NCBI GenBank assembly: GCA_020433455.1
Contig: JAGRCP010000013.1
Span: 1-64,000, forward strand
Length of the DNA stretch: 64,000 nucleotides
Direction: 5' to 3'
From: Caldilineaceae bacterium
GTDB lineage: Bacteria > Chloroflexota > Anaerolineae > Caldilineales > Caldilineaceae
Within the stretch, counting starts at the first letter, position 1. Each line of letters opens with the position of its first letter. The notes under the pieces are model-generated. The model did not search any database. It was not told the DNA's origin and was given only the letters and a program-made list of their open reading frames with translations. Of the stretch, positions 1,812-7,923 are shown in pieces. The translations under genes and the position numbers were made by a program.

Positions 1812-2024
1812 TTATCCAGCTCCGGAGAGCGCCCCCTCCTGCGGCTCCGTTCGGCGTTCGGTTACGGAACGGACGACGCGAGCCATACGTCCGGAAATGC
1901 GGCCGACTATGTTTGCATCAGCGGAACTGACGCGTTCGATGCGGACGCCCTGACGTCGGGCAAAGCGTCGATAATCAGCATAACGCGCCTGAGCCGCCCA
2001 AAAATCCTGGATAGATCTTTCCAT
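1812..2024 (-). CDS. Small hypothetical protein (70 aa), first of a pair
   Basis: Not recognised. The product has 70 residues, starts MERSIQDFWAAQARYADYRR, and is strongly basic with several Arg clusters, which would fit a small nucleic-acid-binding or regulatory protein, but this is inference only. A near-perfect Shine-Dalgarno sequence (GGAAAGGAGGCGACT then ATG) supports translation. It is divergent from the Rel-like/STAND gene at 2348 and shares the 323-bp regulatory gap with it. It precedes the 69-aa gene on the same strand. Confidence 0.5.
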   Translation of the reverse strand: MERSIQDFWAAQARYADYRRFARRQGVRIERVSSADANIVGRISGRMARVVRSVTERRTEPQEGALSGAG

Positions 2025-2165: not shown

Positions 2166-2194
2166 TTGCAGAACATGCGACGTTCGTGTATATT
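2166..2194 (+). promoter_or_regulatory. Sigma-70-type promoter for the Rel-like/STAND gene
   Basis: TTGCAG, a 17-bp spacer, then TATATT. A start near 2201 would leave a leader of about 147 nt before the ATG at 2348. That leader holds the TACACAAA/TTTTGTGT motifs and has no convincing Shine-Dalgarno sequence next to the ATG. Confidence 0.5.
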
Positions 2195-2229
2195 GTGCTT
2201 ATCGCTTAATTGCACAAGCAACAGGATAA

Positions 2230-2280
2230 TAATACACAAATACACTTTTGTCAATACCCAAAACACGTTTTGTGTGTATC
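2230..2280. promoter_or_regulatory. Cluster of TTTTGTGTAT-like inverted motifs (operator candidate)
   Basis: AT-rich segment with AATACACAAA (2231-2240), TACACTTTTG (2241-2250), the perfect inverted repeat CAAAACACGTTTTG (2259-2272) and TTTTGTGTGTAT (2268-2279). The same core recurs at 1762-1772 (GTTTTGTGTAT) and 1781-1788 (TTTGTGTA), in front of the 69-aa gene. This suggests one regulator controlling both sides of the gap 2025-2347. Inference from sequence symmetry only. Confidence 0.4.
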
Positions 2281-2347: not shown

Positions 2348-5300
2348 ATGACCTCAAACAATCAGCCGATCACAACCGATAACCGGCGCAACGCTGCACC
2401 GGACGACGCCTGGGCGGAAGAGATAAGCGTAGCCGCCATTTTGCGGGAATGGGGCGCAGCGCCCGCCCTACAGGCCGCGGGCGAATGGTGTACAACCGCG
2501 GCTGGACTTACCGGGCTGGATGCGGGCAGGCTGGAAGCGGAAGCCCCGGAAACGCTTACCCTCTGTCAACGCTACCGCCGCTTCTGCCTGACCAGTCCCC
2601 TCCCCCCGGAGGAGATGGACATCCCGGTTCCCCAGCCTGCCCATAATCGGCGCGGCGCGCCGCTGGCGCTCCAGCGCATCCATGCCTACTGCGCGGCCTA
2701 TGATGCGCCGGATGCAGCATTCCTCTATGCGGCCGTTCTTTGGCAGCGCTTTCTCCGCGCCCGGGATGCCCGGGAGCCCCACCGCCGAGCCTATCAGGAC
2801 GAGGCGCGCCTGCTCCTCAGCCCTTTTTTGGAAATGTTGGGCATGCGCGAGTTAAGCGGGGAAGTGGATTGGTGGCTGGCGGAACAGGCGCCCGATGACC
2901 CGGATCCCGCGCCGCGCCTGACAAATGCACAAATTGCCCGGATGGTAGAGCCGATTCAACGCCAGTTGCCGACCGCTGAATTCAAACAGGGACGATATAC
3001 ACAAATCCACACAGCCGATGCGGGCAGCGGTGCGACGCCGCCCATCGTCATCGACGTATTGGTTCCCCGCCTGCCCGATTGCTATACAGCCCTGTACCAC
3101 ATTCACGATACCTACACAATTATCGACGGCGGACTGGCCGATCACCTGCGCGGCGGCCGCGCCAACAGCTACCGCTGCCTCACCTGCATGGTCTGGAGCG
3201 AACTGCCGGATGAAGCAGGTCCAATCGATACGGCGGAAAACGGCGGCGGGCGCAAGCCGGGGGAGCGAGCACGCGTCCAATTCCGCATCGCCACCCACGC
3301 GCTCTACGAAGTCAACAGTTGGGGCTTGGCGGCCTACTATCTGCGCCGCCGGTTAGAGGGCGAGCTGCCGCCGGGCTGGTGGACGCAACGCGAAGCCGGC
3401 AGCCGCCACATCGCATTGGACAAGCCCGGCGCGCTGCCCGGCACCCTCTATGTGTTTAGCCCCCACGGCCAGCTTTTCAAATTCAACCAGGGCGCGACAG
3501 TGGTCGATTACGCCTATCACGTCCACTCCGACCTGGCGGACCGCTGCCGGCGCTTTGTGGTCAACGGCGAAACGGCCGAACCGTTCACCGTGCTGCGCCA
3601 CCTGGATCTGGTGGAGCTGGAGCATGACGTCCACGCCCCCGGTCCGACCCAGGTCTGGCTGAATGCCGCGCGCACCAGCCGGGCCCGGGCCAAAATCCAG
3701 CGCTTCCTCAAGCGCCGCGGCTACGGCGTCTATCAGGGGCGGCGCATTTTGGAAGAGCAGCTCGAACAGCTGGCCGATTATTACGGCTTCGCCATGCCCA
3801 AACATCGGGTCGATCAGGTTGTGCGCCGCTCGCTGGCCCTCTTTGAGCTATCGGGCGAGGAAGAATTTTACAATGAGATTGCCAACGGCCGCCTGGATCC
3901 GCGCAGCGTGCTCATCCGTTATTTTTCCGAAGAGGTCGCGCAGCAGATCGAACTGCCGCCCGGCGTCTCCCGGCGCAACAATCTGCGCATCGCCCAGTGC
4001 TGTCGTCCCCGCCCGGGCGATCCCATTGTAGGCTGGGCCAAACGGCGCGGCACGGCAATTCTAGAGCTGCGGGTTCACCGGGCGGATTGTGAACGGATGA
4101 GCGACATGGCCGAAGATTCCCCCGATCGCCTGGCGCTTAGTTGGCGGCCCGGTTCCAAACTTGCAGTGCTGGCCCAACTGGAGATCATCGCGCAAAACGA
4201 CGACGGCCTGCTGGGCGATGCCATCGGCCAAGTCTACGCCGCACTGCCTCACGTCAATCTTCACCGCGCGGACGCGCTTGCACGCCGGGGCGTTGCCGTT
4301 ATCAACTTTATTGTTGAGGCAGAAAGTCATGACGTTCTGGAACAGATGGCCCAATCCCTGCGCGATCTCCCCTATCGGAACGTAGATCATGTCCGCATCA
4401 TGGACGTTCCGCCTACGGAGCGGGAAGACCTGGCCAATGTCAGCTCCCTGGCTTTTACCAATCCCTACAGCCGCATGCCCGTCCACGAGCGCGAGATGTT
4501 CTTTGGCCGCAAGGCCGAATTAGAGCGCATTGCGGGCGACCTGCAAGCCAATGCCGAGGCTATCTGGCTACGCGGCCAAAAGCGGGTCGGCAAAACATCG
4601 CTGCTGCTCCAATTGAAGCGAATCCATCTGCACTCCCAGGGCTTTGTGCCGGCTTATGTGGACTTTCAAATGCTCAGTCAGATCGATGGACCGCTCATTT
4701 TTTATGACCTGGCCGCGCACATTTACAGCGATCTGCAGCACAGCGATCTCCGGCTCGGGGAGCATCACGTCGCCGCGCGGATTGATGAGTTGGGGCCGCC
4801 CCTGCGCGATCTGTTTGAGCATGAGCCGGCCCGCCAATTTATGCAGTACCTCATGGATATCCAGCATTGCCTGGGCCAGAATCACCTGCTCCTTCTGCTG
4901 GATGAGTTCAGCCGCACAATCGATGCCAAAAAAGCGGGGCGACTTCCCATTGACTTCTTCGACCAGTGGCGCGGCATTATGCTCAACACGCCCAGAATCA
5001 ACGTCAACATGGTTCTTGTGGTGCAACAGCGCACATACGAGCGGTTGAAGGGGGAGGAGTCATTCGAGCAAGAGCCGATTGCAGAGCTGCTGGAACTGGG
5101 CGATCACCTTATCCTGCGCCCCCTGGATCATGCCGACGTGCAGCGCCTGATTGAGTGGCCGATTCAAAATGTGCTGGAATATCCGCCCACGTTGGTGGGT
5201 TACGTGGCCTCCCTCACCGGCGGCAGCCCGTTTCTGATTCAGGCTTTCTGCCACAAATTGGTGACGGGCATGCGCCGCCGCCATGCCCATCGGGTGACGC

Positions 5301-5614
5301 GCAACGATGTCGAGGCGGTCTGCCGGGAGTTCATGCACCCGGGAGAAAGCCTCTTCGCCCACCTGCTGGACCTTGTGCGGGGCGTGGGCCTGGTGACGGC
5401 CCAGCGTCTGGCTGATCTGGCCGAGGAGAGCGGTCAGGATGAAATCGCCATGACGCAACTCAGCGAGTCCATGCCCCAGATCACCCGGGAGCAATTGCAG
5501 CGCACCCTGGAAGAACTCAGCCGCCACGATATTTTAATTGCCGAACCTGAGGAGCGCTGGCGCTTTGCCAGCCTGCTCTTCCGCCGATGGCTCCATACCA
5601 ATCCGCGTGTGTAA
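2348..5614 (+). CDS. Degenerate RelA/SpoT-like protein fused to a STAND-type NTPase (1088 aa)
   Basis: Residues about 20-185 resemble the helical HD-hydrolase half of RelA/SpoT but lack the His-Asp motif. Residues about 195-345 follow the (p)ppGpp synthetase fold (LPDCYTALYHIHDTY, NSYRCLTC, RVQFRIATHALYEVNSWGLAAYY), but the G-Y-Q-S-L-H-T motif is altered and the catalytic Glu of E-x-Q-I-R-T is Arg. Residues about 364-428 form a clear TGS domain (VDYAYHVHSDLADRC), then the NAARTSRARAKIQRFLKRR helix, a Cys-containing region (RIAQCCRPRPGDPIVGWAKR ... HRADC, about 548-581) and an ACT-like domain (about 605-685). A STAND/AAA_16-type NTPase follows: FFGRKAEL, Walker A GQKRVGKTS (about 743-751), Walker B LLLLLDEFS, and a winged-helix-like end. 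Both enzyme halves look inactive, so a sensing role is likely. A second ATPase gene follows 164 bp downstream. Domain calls are firm; function is inferred. Confidence 0.8.
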   Translation: MTSNNQPITTDNRRNAAPDDAWAEEISVAAILREWGAAPALQAAGEWCTTAAGLTGLDAGRLEAEAPETLTLCQRYRRFCLTSPLPPEEMDIPVPQPAHNRRGAPLALQRIHAYCAAYDAPDAAFLYAAVLWQRFLRARDAREPHRRAYQDEARLLLSPFLEMLGMRELSGEVDWWLAEQAPDDPDPAPRLTNAQIARMVEPIQRQLPTAEFKQGRYTQIHTADAGSGATPPIVIDVLVPRLPDCYTALYHIHDTYTIIDGGLADHLRGGRANSYRCLTCMVWSELPDEAGPIDTAENGGGRKPGERARVQFRIATHALYEVNSWGLAAYYLRRRLEGELPPGWWTQREAGSRHIALDKPGALPGTLYVFSPHGQLFKFNQGATVVDYAYHVHSDLADRCRRFVVNGETAEPFTVLRHLDLVELEHDVHAPGPTQVWLNAARTSRARAKIQRFLKRRGYGVYQGRRILEEQLEQLADYYGFAMPKHRVDQVVRRSLALFELSGEEEFYNEIANGRLDPRSVLIRYFSEEVAQQIELPPGVSRRNNLRIAQCCRPRPGDPIVGWAKRRGTAILELRVHRADCERMSDMAEDSPDRLALSWRPGSKLAVLAQLEIIAQNDDGLLGDAIGQVYAALPHVNLHRADALARRGVAVINFIVEAESHDVLEQMAQSLRDLPYRNVDHVRIMDVPPTEREDLANVSSLAFTNPYSRMPVHEREMFFGRKAELERIAGDLQANAEAIWLRGQKRVGKTSLLLQLKRIHLHSQGFVPAYVDFQMLSQIDGPLIFYDLAAHIYSDLQHSDLRLGEHHVAARIDELGPPLRDLFEHEPARQFMQYLMDIQHCLGQNHLLLLLDEFSRTIDAKKAGRLPIDFFDQWRGIMLNTPRINVNMVLVVQQRTYERLKGEESFEQEPIAELLELGDHLILRPLDHADVQRLIEWPIQNVLEYPPTLVGYVASLTGGSPFLIQAFCHKLVTGMRRRHAHRVTRNDVEAVCREFMHPGESLFAHLLDLVRGVGLVTAQRLADLAEESGQDEIAMTQLSESMPQITREQLQRTLEELSRHDILIAEPEERWRFASLLFRRWLHTNPRV

Positions 5615-5674
5615 CCGAACCAAACGGCGCGCTGGTTAGGAAAGGAACCGGAACTCCCGCCATCCGCGGGCTAC

Positions 5675-5760
5675 TACAGTCCGGCGTGAATGCCACGACA
5701 GAAAGTCAACTGTTCTACCACTGGGATGAACTGCACACGGATTTCTGTCGGGATTCACCA
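5675..5760. repeat. 86-bp dispersed palindromic element, copy A
   Basis: Begins TACAGTCCGGCGTGAATG and ends TTTCTGTCGGGATTCACCA. Its ends are inverted repeats (GTGAATNCC...GACAGAAA against TTTCTGTCGGGATTCAC). It aligns without gaps to 53131-53216 at about 69 of 86 bases. It sits between two ATPase genes, just before the ribosome site of the second. Confidence 0.75.
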
Positions 5761-5778
5761 GAGAAAGGACGTCCGATC

Positions 5779-7161
5779 ATGGACCCGCTCAAGTCTCAGC
5801 TTTATGGTCGCAGCGATATTATTCGCGACATCACGGAAGGCGTGCTGGCCGATCAGCCCGGCAGCTTCTCTCTGGTCGGCACCAAGCTCATCGGCAAGAG
5901 CTTTTTGTTAGGGTATCTGGCCGCGCCCTATGGATCCCTGCGCGGTCCCGAATACGCGAATTGGCGGCCGCCCCGCTTTAAGGACGGCGGCAATGTGACG
6001 GTCGTTAAGATCGATTGCGACTGGGCCGAAGCCCAGGACGATCTGCTGACCTATCTCTATGAGCAGGCCTTTGAACAGATTAGGGAAAAAGAAAGCCTGG
6101 CGCTGGATGAAGCGCGCATCCTGGCCCAGCACAGCCCGACCCTGCGCCTATGGCAAATTGCCCGCCAACTCAATGACAGGCGCTACCGCCTGGTGATGCT
6201 GCTGGATAATTTTGACCGGGTCTTCGAGCGCCAGATCATTCACTCCGACGCCGTGGATGAGCTGCGCCCCCTGACGCTGGAGATGGCGCTGGTTGTGGCC
6301 ACGGAGCAGCCCCTCCACGATCTGGATCGGGAACTGGCGGCATCGCCTCTCTTCAACGTCATGACCCAAATTTTTGTGGGGCTCATTGATGTGGAGGCGG
6401 CCAATGAGTGGCTCGACGCCTATTGCCTGGAATTTCCCGCCCTGGAAAGCATGCGCGGAGAATTGTTGGAATTGACCGGCACGCACCCCTATCTGTTGCG
6501 TCGTATCAGTGAAATTATCCCCGAAATCCGCAAAATTCTCACGCCCAATCAGGAATTGGGGCCCGATCACAGTGCGCTGGTGCGCTTGCGCCTGGCCGAG
6601 CATGGCCGGCTCCTTTTCTCCATGCTCGAACGCAAGCTCAGGCAGCCGCCGGATCGCCTGCGCGAGGATGTCGTAGACAGCATGATCGGGCAGCTGCTGT
6701 GCGGCCCCATCCGCATTGAAGAGATGAACCGGGAGGAGCGGATTGTCCTCAACTGGATGATCAACCAGGCAATGATGCTCTGCGGCCGGCACGGTTATCG
6801 CTTCTTCTCGCCCCTCTTCACCGAATTCCTGAGCGACCGCCTGGAATTCGCCCCGACCGACGCGGCGCCCCGCCGGGCGCAAGTCGCCGACGCATCCGGT
6901 CAGGATGACGATCCCATTTACCGGCAGTTAACCAAAACCGAGTCCGCACTTCTGCGCTATTTCCGCGCCCACGCCCGGGATATCGTCACGCCCCAGCAGT
7001 TGCTGGATGACGTGTGGAATCGCCCCAACGCCACCAGCCGTCGGGTTCAGGAGGCCATCCGCCGCCTGCGTCTCCAGCTCGAAGACGCCCACCCGCCCGT
7101 CGGCATCATCGAAAATGAACGGGGCCGCGGCTATCGCTTTGTCCCGGCAGGAGAACTGTAA
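5779..7161 (+). CDS. ATPase with C-terminal OmpR/PhoB-type winged-helix DNA-binding domain (460 aa)
   Basis: N-terminal P-loop domain: LYGRSDIIRDI entry motif, Walker A GTKLIGKS (residues 34-41), Walker B LVMLLDNFD (about 138-146), and a helical region with THPYLLRRI. The last 80 residues are a Trans_reg_C winged helix (LTKTESALLRYFRAH ... VTPQQLLDDVW ... RRVQEAIRRLR ... ERGRGYRFVP). This predicts an ATP-regulated transcription factor. The ATG at 5779 was chosen because GAAAGGACG precedes it; the frame is open upstream to 5587, but that part is a dispersed repeat. It lies 164 bp behind the Rel-like/STAND gene and 3 bp before cofE. It may respond to signals from the upstream gene and bind the TTTTGTGTAT motifs at 1.76-2.28 kb; both links are inference. 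Confidence 0.8.
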   Translation: MDPLKSQLYGRSDIIRDITEGVLADQPGSFSLVGTKLIGKSFLLGYLAAPYGSLRGPEYANWRPPRFKDGGNVTVVKIDCDWAEAQDDLLTYLYEQAFEQIREKESLALDEARILAQHSPTLRLWQIARQLNDRRYRLVMLLDNFDRVFERQIIHSDAVDELRPLTLEMALVVATEQPLHDLDRELAASPLFNVMTQIFVGLIDVEAANEWLDAYCLEFPALESMRGELLELTGTHPYLLRRISEIIPEIRKILTPNQELGPDHSALVRLRLAEHGRLLFSMLERKLRQPPDRLREDVVDSMIGQLLCGPIRIEEMNREERIVLNWMINQAMMLCGRHGYRFFSPLFTEFLSDRLEFAPTDAAPRRAQVADASGQDDDPIYRQLTKTESALLRYFRAHARDIVTPQQLLDDVWNRPNATSRRVQEAIRRLRLQLEDAHPPVGIIENERGRGYRFVPAGEL

Positions 7162-7164
7162 AAT

Positions 7165-7923
7165 ATGTGCGCAATGACGCTCTTTGCCGTTGAAAATTTT
7201 CCGCTCGTCCATCCCGGCGATAACCTGGCCGCCCTCGTTGTGGATAGGCTGACGCGTATGGGCGAACAGTTGGAGCCGGGCGACATTCTCGTTATCGCCC
7301 AGAAGATCGTGAGCAAGGCCGAGGGCAGGGTGATCGATTTGGCCACGGTGACGCCCACAAGCGCAGCCCAGGAGCTGGCAACCCTAACCGGCAAGGATTC
7401 GCCCACGGTACAGGTCATTCTGGACGACAGCAACGAAGTCATCCGTGCGTTGCCCGGCCTCCTGATTACCGAGCAACGGTCGGGTTGGATCTGCGCCCAC
7501 GCGGGCGTCGATCGCTCTAACGTAGACGGCGGCTCCGCCCTGGCGCTCCTGCCGGCCGACGCCGACGCCAGCGCCGCCCAAATACGTGAGGAAATCGCCG
7601 CGCTGACGGGCGTTGCGCCCGGGGTGCTGATTAACGACAGCCACGGCCGCCCGTGGCGACAGGGCACGGTCGGCGTTTGCATCGGCTGCGCGGGGCTGCC
7701 GCCCGTCTGGAACCAGCGCGGACTCCACGATCTCTACGGCTACGAACTGACGGGCAGCGAAGAGTGTATTGCCGATGAGCTGACCGGTGCGGCCAGCTTG
7801 ATCATGGGCCAGAGCGATGAAGCCCGGCCCGTCGTCGTTATCCGCGGCTATCCCCTTCCGCCTGTGGGGCCTGCACCGGCAAAGTCAATCCAACGCCCCA
7901 AAGAGCGGGACGCATTCCGGTAG
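7165..7923 (+). CDS. cofE: Coenzyme F420:L-glutamate ligase (CofE/FbiB-N family)
   Basis: Adds L-glutamate residues to F420-0 using GTP, giving the tail of coenzyme F420; cytoplasmic. The 252-residue chain is the size of stand-alone archaeal CofE. It has the family motifs: [17 protein letters not shown] near the N-terminus, an [12 protein letters not shown] segment (NAGVDxSN in the family), and [21 protein letters not shown]. No nitroreductase domain as in actinobacterial FbiB is attached. An AGGAG lies 11 bases before the ATG at 7165; another ATG follows at 7174. It starts 3 bp after the ATPase-winged-helix gene and may be read through from it. The last 25 residues are low in family similarity. 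A DhaK/enzyme-I relic follows. No other F420 genes are in the window. Confidence 0.85.

Follow-up and report, generated by a model that had tools for sequence, protein, structure and literature searches.

A degenerate Rel protein fused to a STAND NTPase, and its adjacent STAND-winged-helix partner, as a possible two-protein switch in Chloroflexota

RelA/SpoT homolog (RSH) proteins are known for making and degrading (p)ppGpp, and a survey of them places Rel, pbcSpo2 and Mesh1-L in Chloroflexi (PMC3153485). In RelA, residue H432 intercalates between C74 and C75 of the tRNA CCA end (PMC4974054), and the H432E substitution abolishes activation by deacyl-tRNA (PMC7058999). RelA nucleotidyltransferase and TGS domains are also mentioned, in parts of two accounts of conflict systems, as effectors of vWA-MoxR systems, with RelA as a nucleotide-generating effector (PMC7159879; PMC8195603). 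Here we describe two adjacent genes, A and B, in a 64,000-nucleotide stretch of DNA from a Caldilineaceae bacterium (assembly GCA_020433455.1, contig JAGRCP010000013.1, positions 1 to 64,000; hereafter the window), whose genome measures 5.25 Mb and is 99% complete. Gene A joins a Rel that has lost catalytic residues to a STAND-type NTPase, and gene B, the next gene downstream on the same strand, encodes a second such NTPase with an OmpR-type winged helix. We put about even trust in the reading that A and B together form a two-protein switch, in which a pseudo-Rel-STAND protein would signal to a STAND-winged helix-turn-helix (wHTH) protein serving as the transcription output. Probably, the pair responds to starvation by altering gene activity, and does so without producing the usual alarm nucleotide.

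Domains of protein A and the residues they keep

Gene A is a single unbroken open reading frame (ORF) encoding protein P0001, whose parts are laid out as follows.

2348..5614, plus strand: gene A, pseudo-Rel fused to a STAND NTPase, 1088 amino acids (aa); one ORF, with orthologs at 34 other loci.
2396..2887, plus strand: pseudo-hydrolase (HD) domain, aa ~17-180, HD motif lost; AlphaFold2 (AF2)/VIA-align fit to the Rel N-terminal region, residue tables, HD_4 in 21/28 orthologs.
2909..3343, plus strand: pseudo-synthetase (SYN) domain, aa ~188-332; residue tables, AF2 fold match, RelA_SpoT in 22/28 orthologs.
3443..3622, plus strand: TGS domain, aa ~366-425; Pfam TGS at 368-424, E 3.7e-10; P372 and H393 (RelA P411 and H432) invariant in 28 orthologs.
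3623..3952, plus strand: alpha-helical (AH) linker region, aa ~426-535; NCBIfam spoT_relA, PDB RelA alignment, model helices.
3980..4147, plus strand: RIS/zinc-finger-like domain, aa ~545-600; C551, C552, H577 and C581 retained.
4166..4417, plus strand: ACT domain, aa ~607-690; ACT_4 weak at 609-675 in P0001, found in 17/28 orthologs.
4463..5611, plus strand: STAND NTPase of gene A, aa ~706-1088; Walker A GQKRVGKTS, Walker B LLLLDE, GGSPF motif, ORC2/CED-4/NLR structures at Z 16-22.

Residues 365-673 of P0001 match the NCBIfam spoT_relA model (E 3.3e-32), PDB Rel chains align by sequence with residues 235-675, and ACT_4 and AAA_16/nSTAND1 (the latter from about residue 713) stay below threshold in this single protein. 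When each segment was searched with HMMs across 28 orthologs, as a preliminary description made from the sequence alone had proposed, TGS and AAA_16 were found in all 28 and the remaining models in the proportions listed. Rel catalytic domains fit residues 17-332 of the AF2 model (7oiw: Z 19.7, 3.2 A, 263 residues), and residues 706-1088 fit ORC/ORC2, CED-4 and NLR NTPases. The full-length model is weak (pLDDT 69, pTM 0.37, with TGS poorly modelled) because the inputs were limited to sequences of the window and related loci. Together, sequence, Pfam and fold matches give the HD-SYN-TGS-AH-RIS-ACT order of long RSH proteins, followed by a domain in which the marks of a STAND are found (both Walker motifs, GGSPF and an NLR/CED-4-like fold), so that the STAND-like P-loop NTPase of the preliminary description holds. 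That description had named the regulatory half of Rel as what protein A keeps. TGS, AH, RIS and ACT are indeed present, but the N-terminal half still has both catalytic folds, and on these fold matches A is therefore a whole pseudo-Rel plus a STAND.

Residue tables over up to 32 fusions, numbered as in E. coli RelA, bear on what this pseudo-Rel could still do. In the window protein the synthetase G-loop, D275 (the Mg Asp), E335 (the catalytic Glu), Q337 and R339 are all lost, as is the entire HD hydrolase motif, in agreement with the earlier claim that the HD motif and the synthetase Glu were missing. The loss is consistent, a complete synthetase site occurring in 0/32 fusions: K254 is absent among the residues listed for them, D275 is gone in nearly all, and E335 is kept only in the fusion of genome G397, which has none of the remaining synthetase residues. 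Members of families f36 and f34 retain the HD and N of the hydrolase motif, with E81 replaced by Lys. Intact catalysis in A is ruled out by these tables. The window's genome encodes a separate canonical Rel with all catalytic residues, and (p)ppGpp synthesis is therefore not the job of protein A. Another Rel paralog, in genome G080 (locus L030, 4700-7015), has an intact HD motif and a degenerate synthetase (KVRLRT for ExQIRT), and is possibly hydrolase-only.

The C-terminal domains present a different pattern of retention. P411 and H432 of TGS are kept in 30/30 fusions, and in the RIS domain C613 is kept in 30/32, H634 in 30/31 and C638 in 31/32; among the RIS/ACT ribosome contacts, the C612/C613 Cys pair is kept and D675 mostly so, while R629 and R670 are lost. 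Among columns conserved in canonical Rel, mean retention is 0.36 in HD, 0.42 in SYN, 0.62 in TGS, 0.42 in AH, 0.63 in RIS and 0.60 in ACT, and six functional C-terminal sites are retained more often than the remaining conserved columns of the C-terminal part (a permutation test, with relatedness ignored, gives p about 1e-4). Equating the CCA-contacting His with that of VGHRC, and so taking it as lost, proved wrong, as E. coli numbering places H432 in HIH, kept in all.

Distribution of the fusion and pairing with gene B

Single-protein and profile searches recovered 35 fusions in 34 genomes of 12 families, which establishes the Rel-STAND fusion as real. Of these, 33 belong to the window's class (11 of them to the same family) and two to other classes of the phylum; a survey of the class found the fusion in 29/396 genomes. 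A scan of genome contigs gave no match with a single protein as query and 10 fusions with an alignment. Whole-profile scores separate the fusions (at least 391 bits) without overlap from canonical Rels, which reach at most 360 bits and end near position 680. Likewise, in a maximum-likelihood tree of Rel halves, a 100/100 branch divides 30 fusions from 14 canonical Rels, among them RelA and SpoT of E. coli. The STAND tree gives the same picture with weak support (SH-aLRT 74), and from the two trees a single origin of the fusions is therefore possible, within the limits that long branches set. The Rel half is under purifying selection, with dN/dS of 0.09-0.21, which rules out a decaying pseudogene, and an assembly join at 4450-4500 is ruled out by the 34 other co-linear fusions. 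Thus, each of the three ways in which the preliminary description had allowed that it might fail (a fusion in one genome only, a join at about 4450-4500, intact catalytic residues) was examined, and none held. In the fusion of genome G276 (locus L130, 4215-7472) an in-frame TAG splits the Rel half, a sequencing error or a recent break.

The partner gene is equally regular. A neighbourhood search, another of the proposed checks, found a B homolog directly downstream of A on the same strand in 33/33 loci whose contig continues past A, and the spacing in 24 measured pairs lies between -64 and +122 nt, save for one with an over-extended ORF start. In the window, an ATG at 5779 is a more likely start for gene B than position 5587 because homologs begin there, which gives the following features.

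5779..7161, plus strand: gene B, STAND NTPase plus OmpR-type winged helix, 460 aa from the conserved start.
5797..6828, plus strand: STAND/AAA NTPase of gene B; AAA_16/AAA_22, Walker A GTKLIGKS, Walker B MLLDN, AF2 matches to 2qen, CED-4 and MalT.
6925..7140, plus strand: OmpR/PhoB-type winged helix of gene B; Trans_reg_C, E 3.9e-15, present in 28/28 sufficiently complete B proteins.

The second protein is thus the NTPase with a winged helix that had been described. Its AF2 model (pLDDT 84) matches archaeal STAND-like ATPases (2qen), CED-4 and, lower, MalT (8bob), and with the TGTHPY motif beside both Walker motifs it, too, carries the marks of a STAND. Neither the domain search nor the AF2 model yielded a receiver domain in B, whose N-terminal part is the NTPase. 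B homologs of 35-51% identity also lie apart from gene A in genomes G026, G010 and G004 (loci L056, L058 and L059), with related upstream motifs.

Within the class, the STAND of A also follows N-terminal halves of other kinds, namely GAF, an FG-GAP propeller, NACHT with HEAT repeats, and TPR with a cold-shock domain, and in most sampled cases adjoins a STAND partner of 430-530 aa, usually with Trans_reg_C. These sister pairs are like A and B in the C-terminal STAND and the mostly adjacent STAND-Trans_reg_C partner, and unlike them in what serves as the sensor half. In a few, the partner terminates with a kinase or has no wHTH. At locus L065 (2941-4893), a Ser/Thr protein kinase domain replaces the winged helix of a STAND partner beside a 1182-aa sensor-STAND, and at L083 (3219-8119, on contig C128 of the window's genome), a 1193-aa Reg_prop (two-component-regulator) propeller-STAND accompanies a 441-aa STAND partner without a winged helix. 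Since the same STAND stands behind other sensor halves and beside STAND-wHTH partners, "sensor" is a natural term for the Rel half and "output" for B, and the arrangement suggests that the Rel half of A is a swappable sensor.

It is improbable, in our view, that the Rel half is instead a passive scaffold, serving dimerisation through TGS and ACT or intramolecular inhibition of the STAND while the signal enters via B or a third protein. TGS and ACT domains do dimerise in isolated RSH structures (PMC4974054), and the loss of the catalytic and several ribosome residues would suit such a role, but in 12 families the full set of Rel domains persists under purifying selection, and the sister pairs place typical sensors (GAF, propellers) at the very same position. 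We regard as the least probable of the readings an anti-phage or abortive-infection STAND system, in which the pseudo-Rel would respond to a state of translation or tRNA brought about by a phage, with the NTPase pair setting off a defence programme. RelA and TGS domains occur in conflict systems of multicellular bacteria, according to parts of one account (PMC7159879). STANDs are common in bacterial immunity, and the structures of this pair match NLR, CED-4 and Avs3, but PADLOC models gave one weak match (E 0.088) and no system, the family's neighbour genes are metabolic (cofE-like), and a search of viral contigs found no relatives. Moreover, immunity STANDs canonically carry nuclease, TIR or protease effectors, whereas neither A nor B has a toxic effector domain and the partner is a wHTH protein in 28/28.

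Input, upstream motif and possible mechanism

The signal most likely to reach A would be a starved ribosome or deacyl-tRNA, for which the invariant H432 and the well-retained RIS residues speak. Several observations weigh against the switch reading. The RelA ribosome contacts K412 and R629 are lost, T465 is lost in most members, and R670 is not kept and is often replaced by an acidic residue. YchF has an equivalent of H432, which may be a feature of the TGS fold, though ThrRS has Gly there; the RIS Cys and His residues may have a structural role, and the fusion of G397 has lost them. B exists without A in the three genomes named above, and therefore either can work alone or has lost its partner. 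Ribosome or tRNA sensing by the Rel half is accordingly something we infer, because K412, R629 and R670 are lost and YchF shares the His.

Some of the same losses suit an alternative that we consider unlikely, though the more probable of the three set out here, in which the direct input to the Rel half would be a small molecule and not the ribosome: (p)ppGpp or GDP/GTP bound by the remnant of the synthetase pocket, or an amino acid bound by ACT. The STAND/B output would be the same. N317 and Y319, which we take to be the guanine side of the Rel synthetase, are kept in 24/30 fusions that have sequence at these sites, and position 315 is K or R in 24/30, while K254, D275 and E335 are gone. This retention in most members is a weak hint of direct alarmone sensing. 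The hydrolase HD and N of f36 and f34, the retained ACT fold and the eroded rRNA contacts would also fit. However, the binding pockets are otherwise heavily altered, with the HD motif fully lost in the window protein, and TGS, RIS and ACT are the best retained domains, so that contacts with RNA or protein fit better than a pocket in the catalytic domains.

The upstream DNA offers a candidate link between B and the pair's own expression.

2186..2199, plus strand: candidate operator or promoter element GTGTATATTGTG(T/C), from a Gibbs motif over 13 upstream regions, with two mismatches in the window.
2235..2280: further TTTGTGTA/TACACAAA repeats upstream of gene A.

A motif near GGTGTATATTGTGTG is common to the upstream regions of gene A and of B-only genes. 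The Gibbs motif has an information content of 16.0, against 11.9-12.7 in shuffles, and ATACACAA occurs in 10/13 upstream regions, against a shuffled maximum of 4. Allowing at most one mismatch, a family-wide search found the motif at the A promoter in three genomes (G005, G016 and G013). Further copies lie in G012, on the contig with the beginning of gene A, and in G026, at its B-only gene; other matches are scattered, many of them within ORFs. The motif may be an operator for B or an element of the core promoter. That it could be the latter also weighs against the switch, as does the search of the window's genome, which gave 10 matches versus 3 for a reversed control, the gene A site alone being convincing and a wider regulon not clearly visible. 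The upstream intergenic region also contains, at 1756-1788, two more direct repeats of TTTGTGTA with 17 nt between them.

Taking up the two-protein switch again, we start from what comparison of the loci supports (architecture, conservation, catalytic loss, invariant pairing, purifying selection and the shared motif) and infer from there a ligand, NTPase cycling, an A-B contact, DNA binding and a direction of control. At rest, the Rel half would hold the STAND of A closed. Engagement of its ligand would let this STAND exchange nucleotide and open, and the opened A could then engage the homologous STAND of B through heterotypic NTPase contacts. This contact would drive or release DNA binding by the OmpR-type winged helix of B, which may act at least on the pair's own promoter via the shared GGTGTATATTGTGTG-like element. 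More tentatively, and with less than even confidence, the pair could constitute a stringent-response branch that does not depend on (p)ppGpp. A pseudo-RSH would detect starved ribosomes and relay the signal through two STANDs directly to a transcription factor, as one plug-in of a general sensor-STAND/STAND-wHTH signalling system in Chloroflexota that would be a counterpart to two-component systems.

Downstream of gene B lies a cofE-like gene at 7165-7923 (F420-0:glutamate ligase type, judged from sequence); such a gene adjoins the pair, or a B-only gene, at 9 loci, and in many of them a YqeB-like (GAGDLASG) gene intervenes. On the other side, the space up to the preceding gene holds a divergent 70-aa ORF (1812-2024, minus strand) that has a strong ribosome-binding site, and it was left out of the system because no homolog accompanies the pair at other loci.

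Relation to known systems

A text search of the RSH survey for fusion terms found no Rel-STAND fusion (PMC3153485), and the literature, as covered by open-licence papers, yielded no description of such a fusion or of the STAND pair, in keeping with the preliminary description, which knew of none. If the proposed switch is real, the starvation sensor of Rel can be rewired to another output, and the family would be a natural tool for separating ribosome sensing from alarmone synthesis. More broadly, sensor-STAND/STAND-wHTH pairs point to a signalling architecture of bacteria that uses immune-type NTPases as its building blocks and is yet to be studied.

The closest relatives of A are the long RSH proteins Rel, RelA and SpoT, with which it shares domain order, folds and key TGS and RIS residues. 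It differs from them in its damaged hydrolase motif, its lost synthetase residues and its added C-terminal STAND, as well as in being paired with a wHTH gene and coexisting with an intact Rel. The STAND/iSTAND conflict systems, as portrayed in parts of their accounts, are also modular NTPases with swappable domains in Chloroflexi and others (PMC7159879; PMC8195603). Set against the vWA-MoxR ternary systems in those same parts, the RelA of A is dead, occupies the sensor position and has a transcription factor as its partner, with no vWA or MoxR in the pair. STAND transcription factors such as MalT likewise combine a sensor, a STAND switch and a DNA-binding output; A and B, in contrast, split sensor and output over two proteins, each with a STAND, and use an OmpR-type rather than a LuxR-type HTH and a Rel-derived sensor. 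The pair is composed of known parts in a new, conserved arrangement, the function of which has probably changed.

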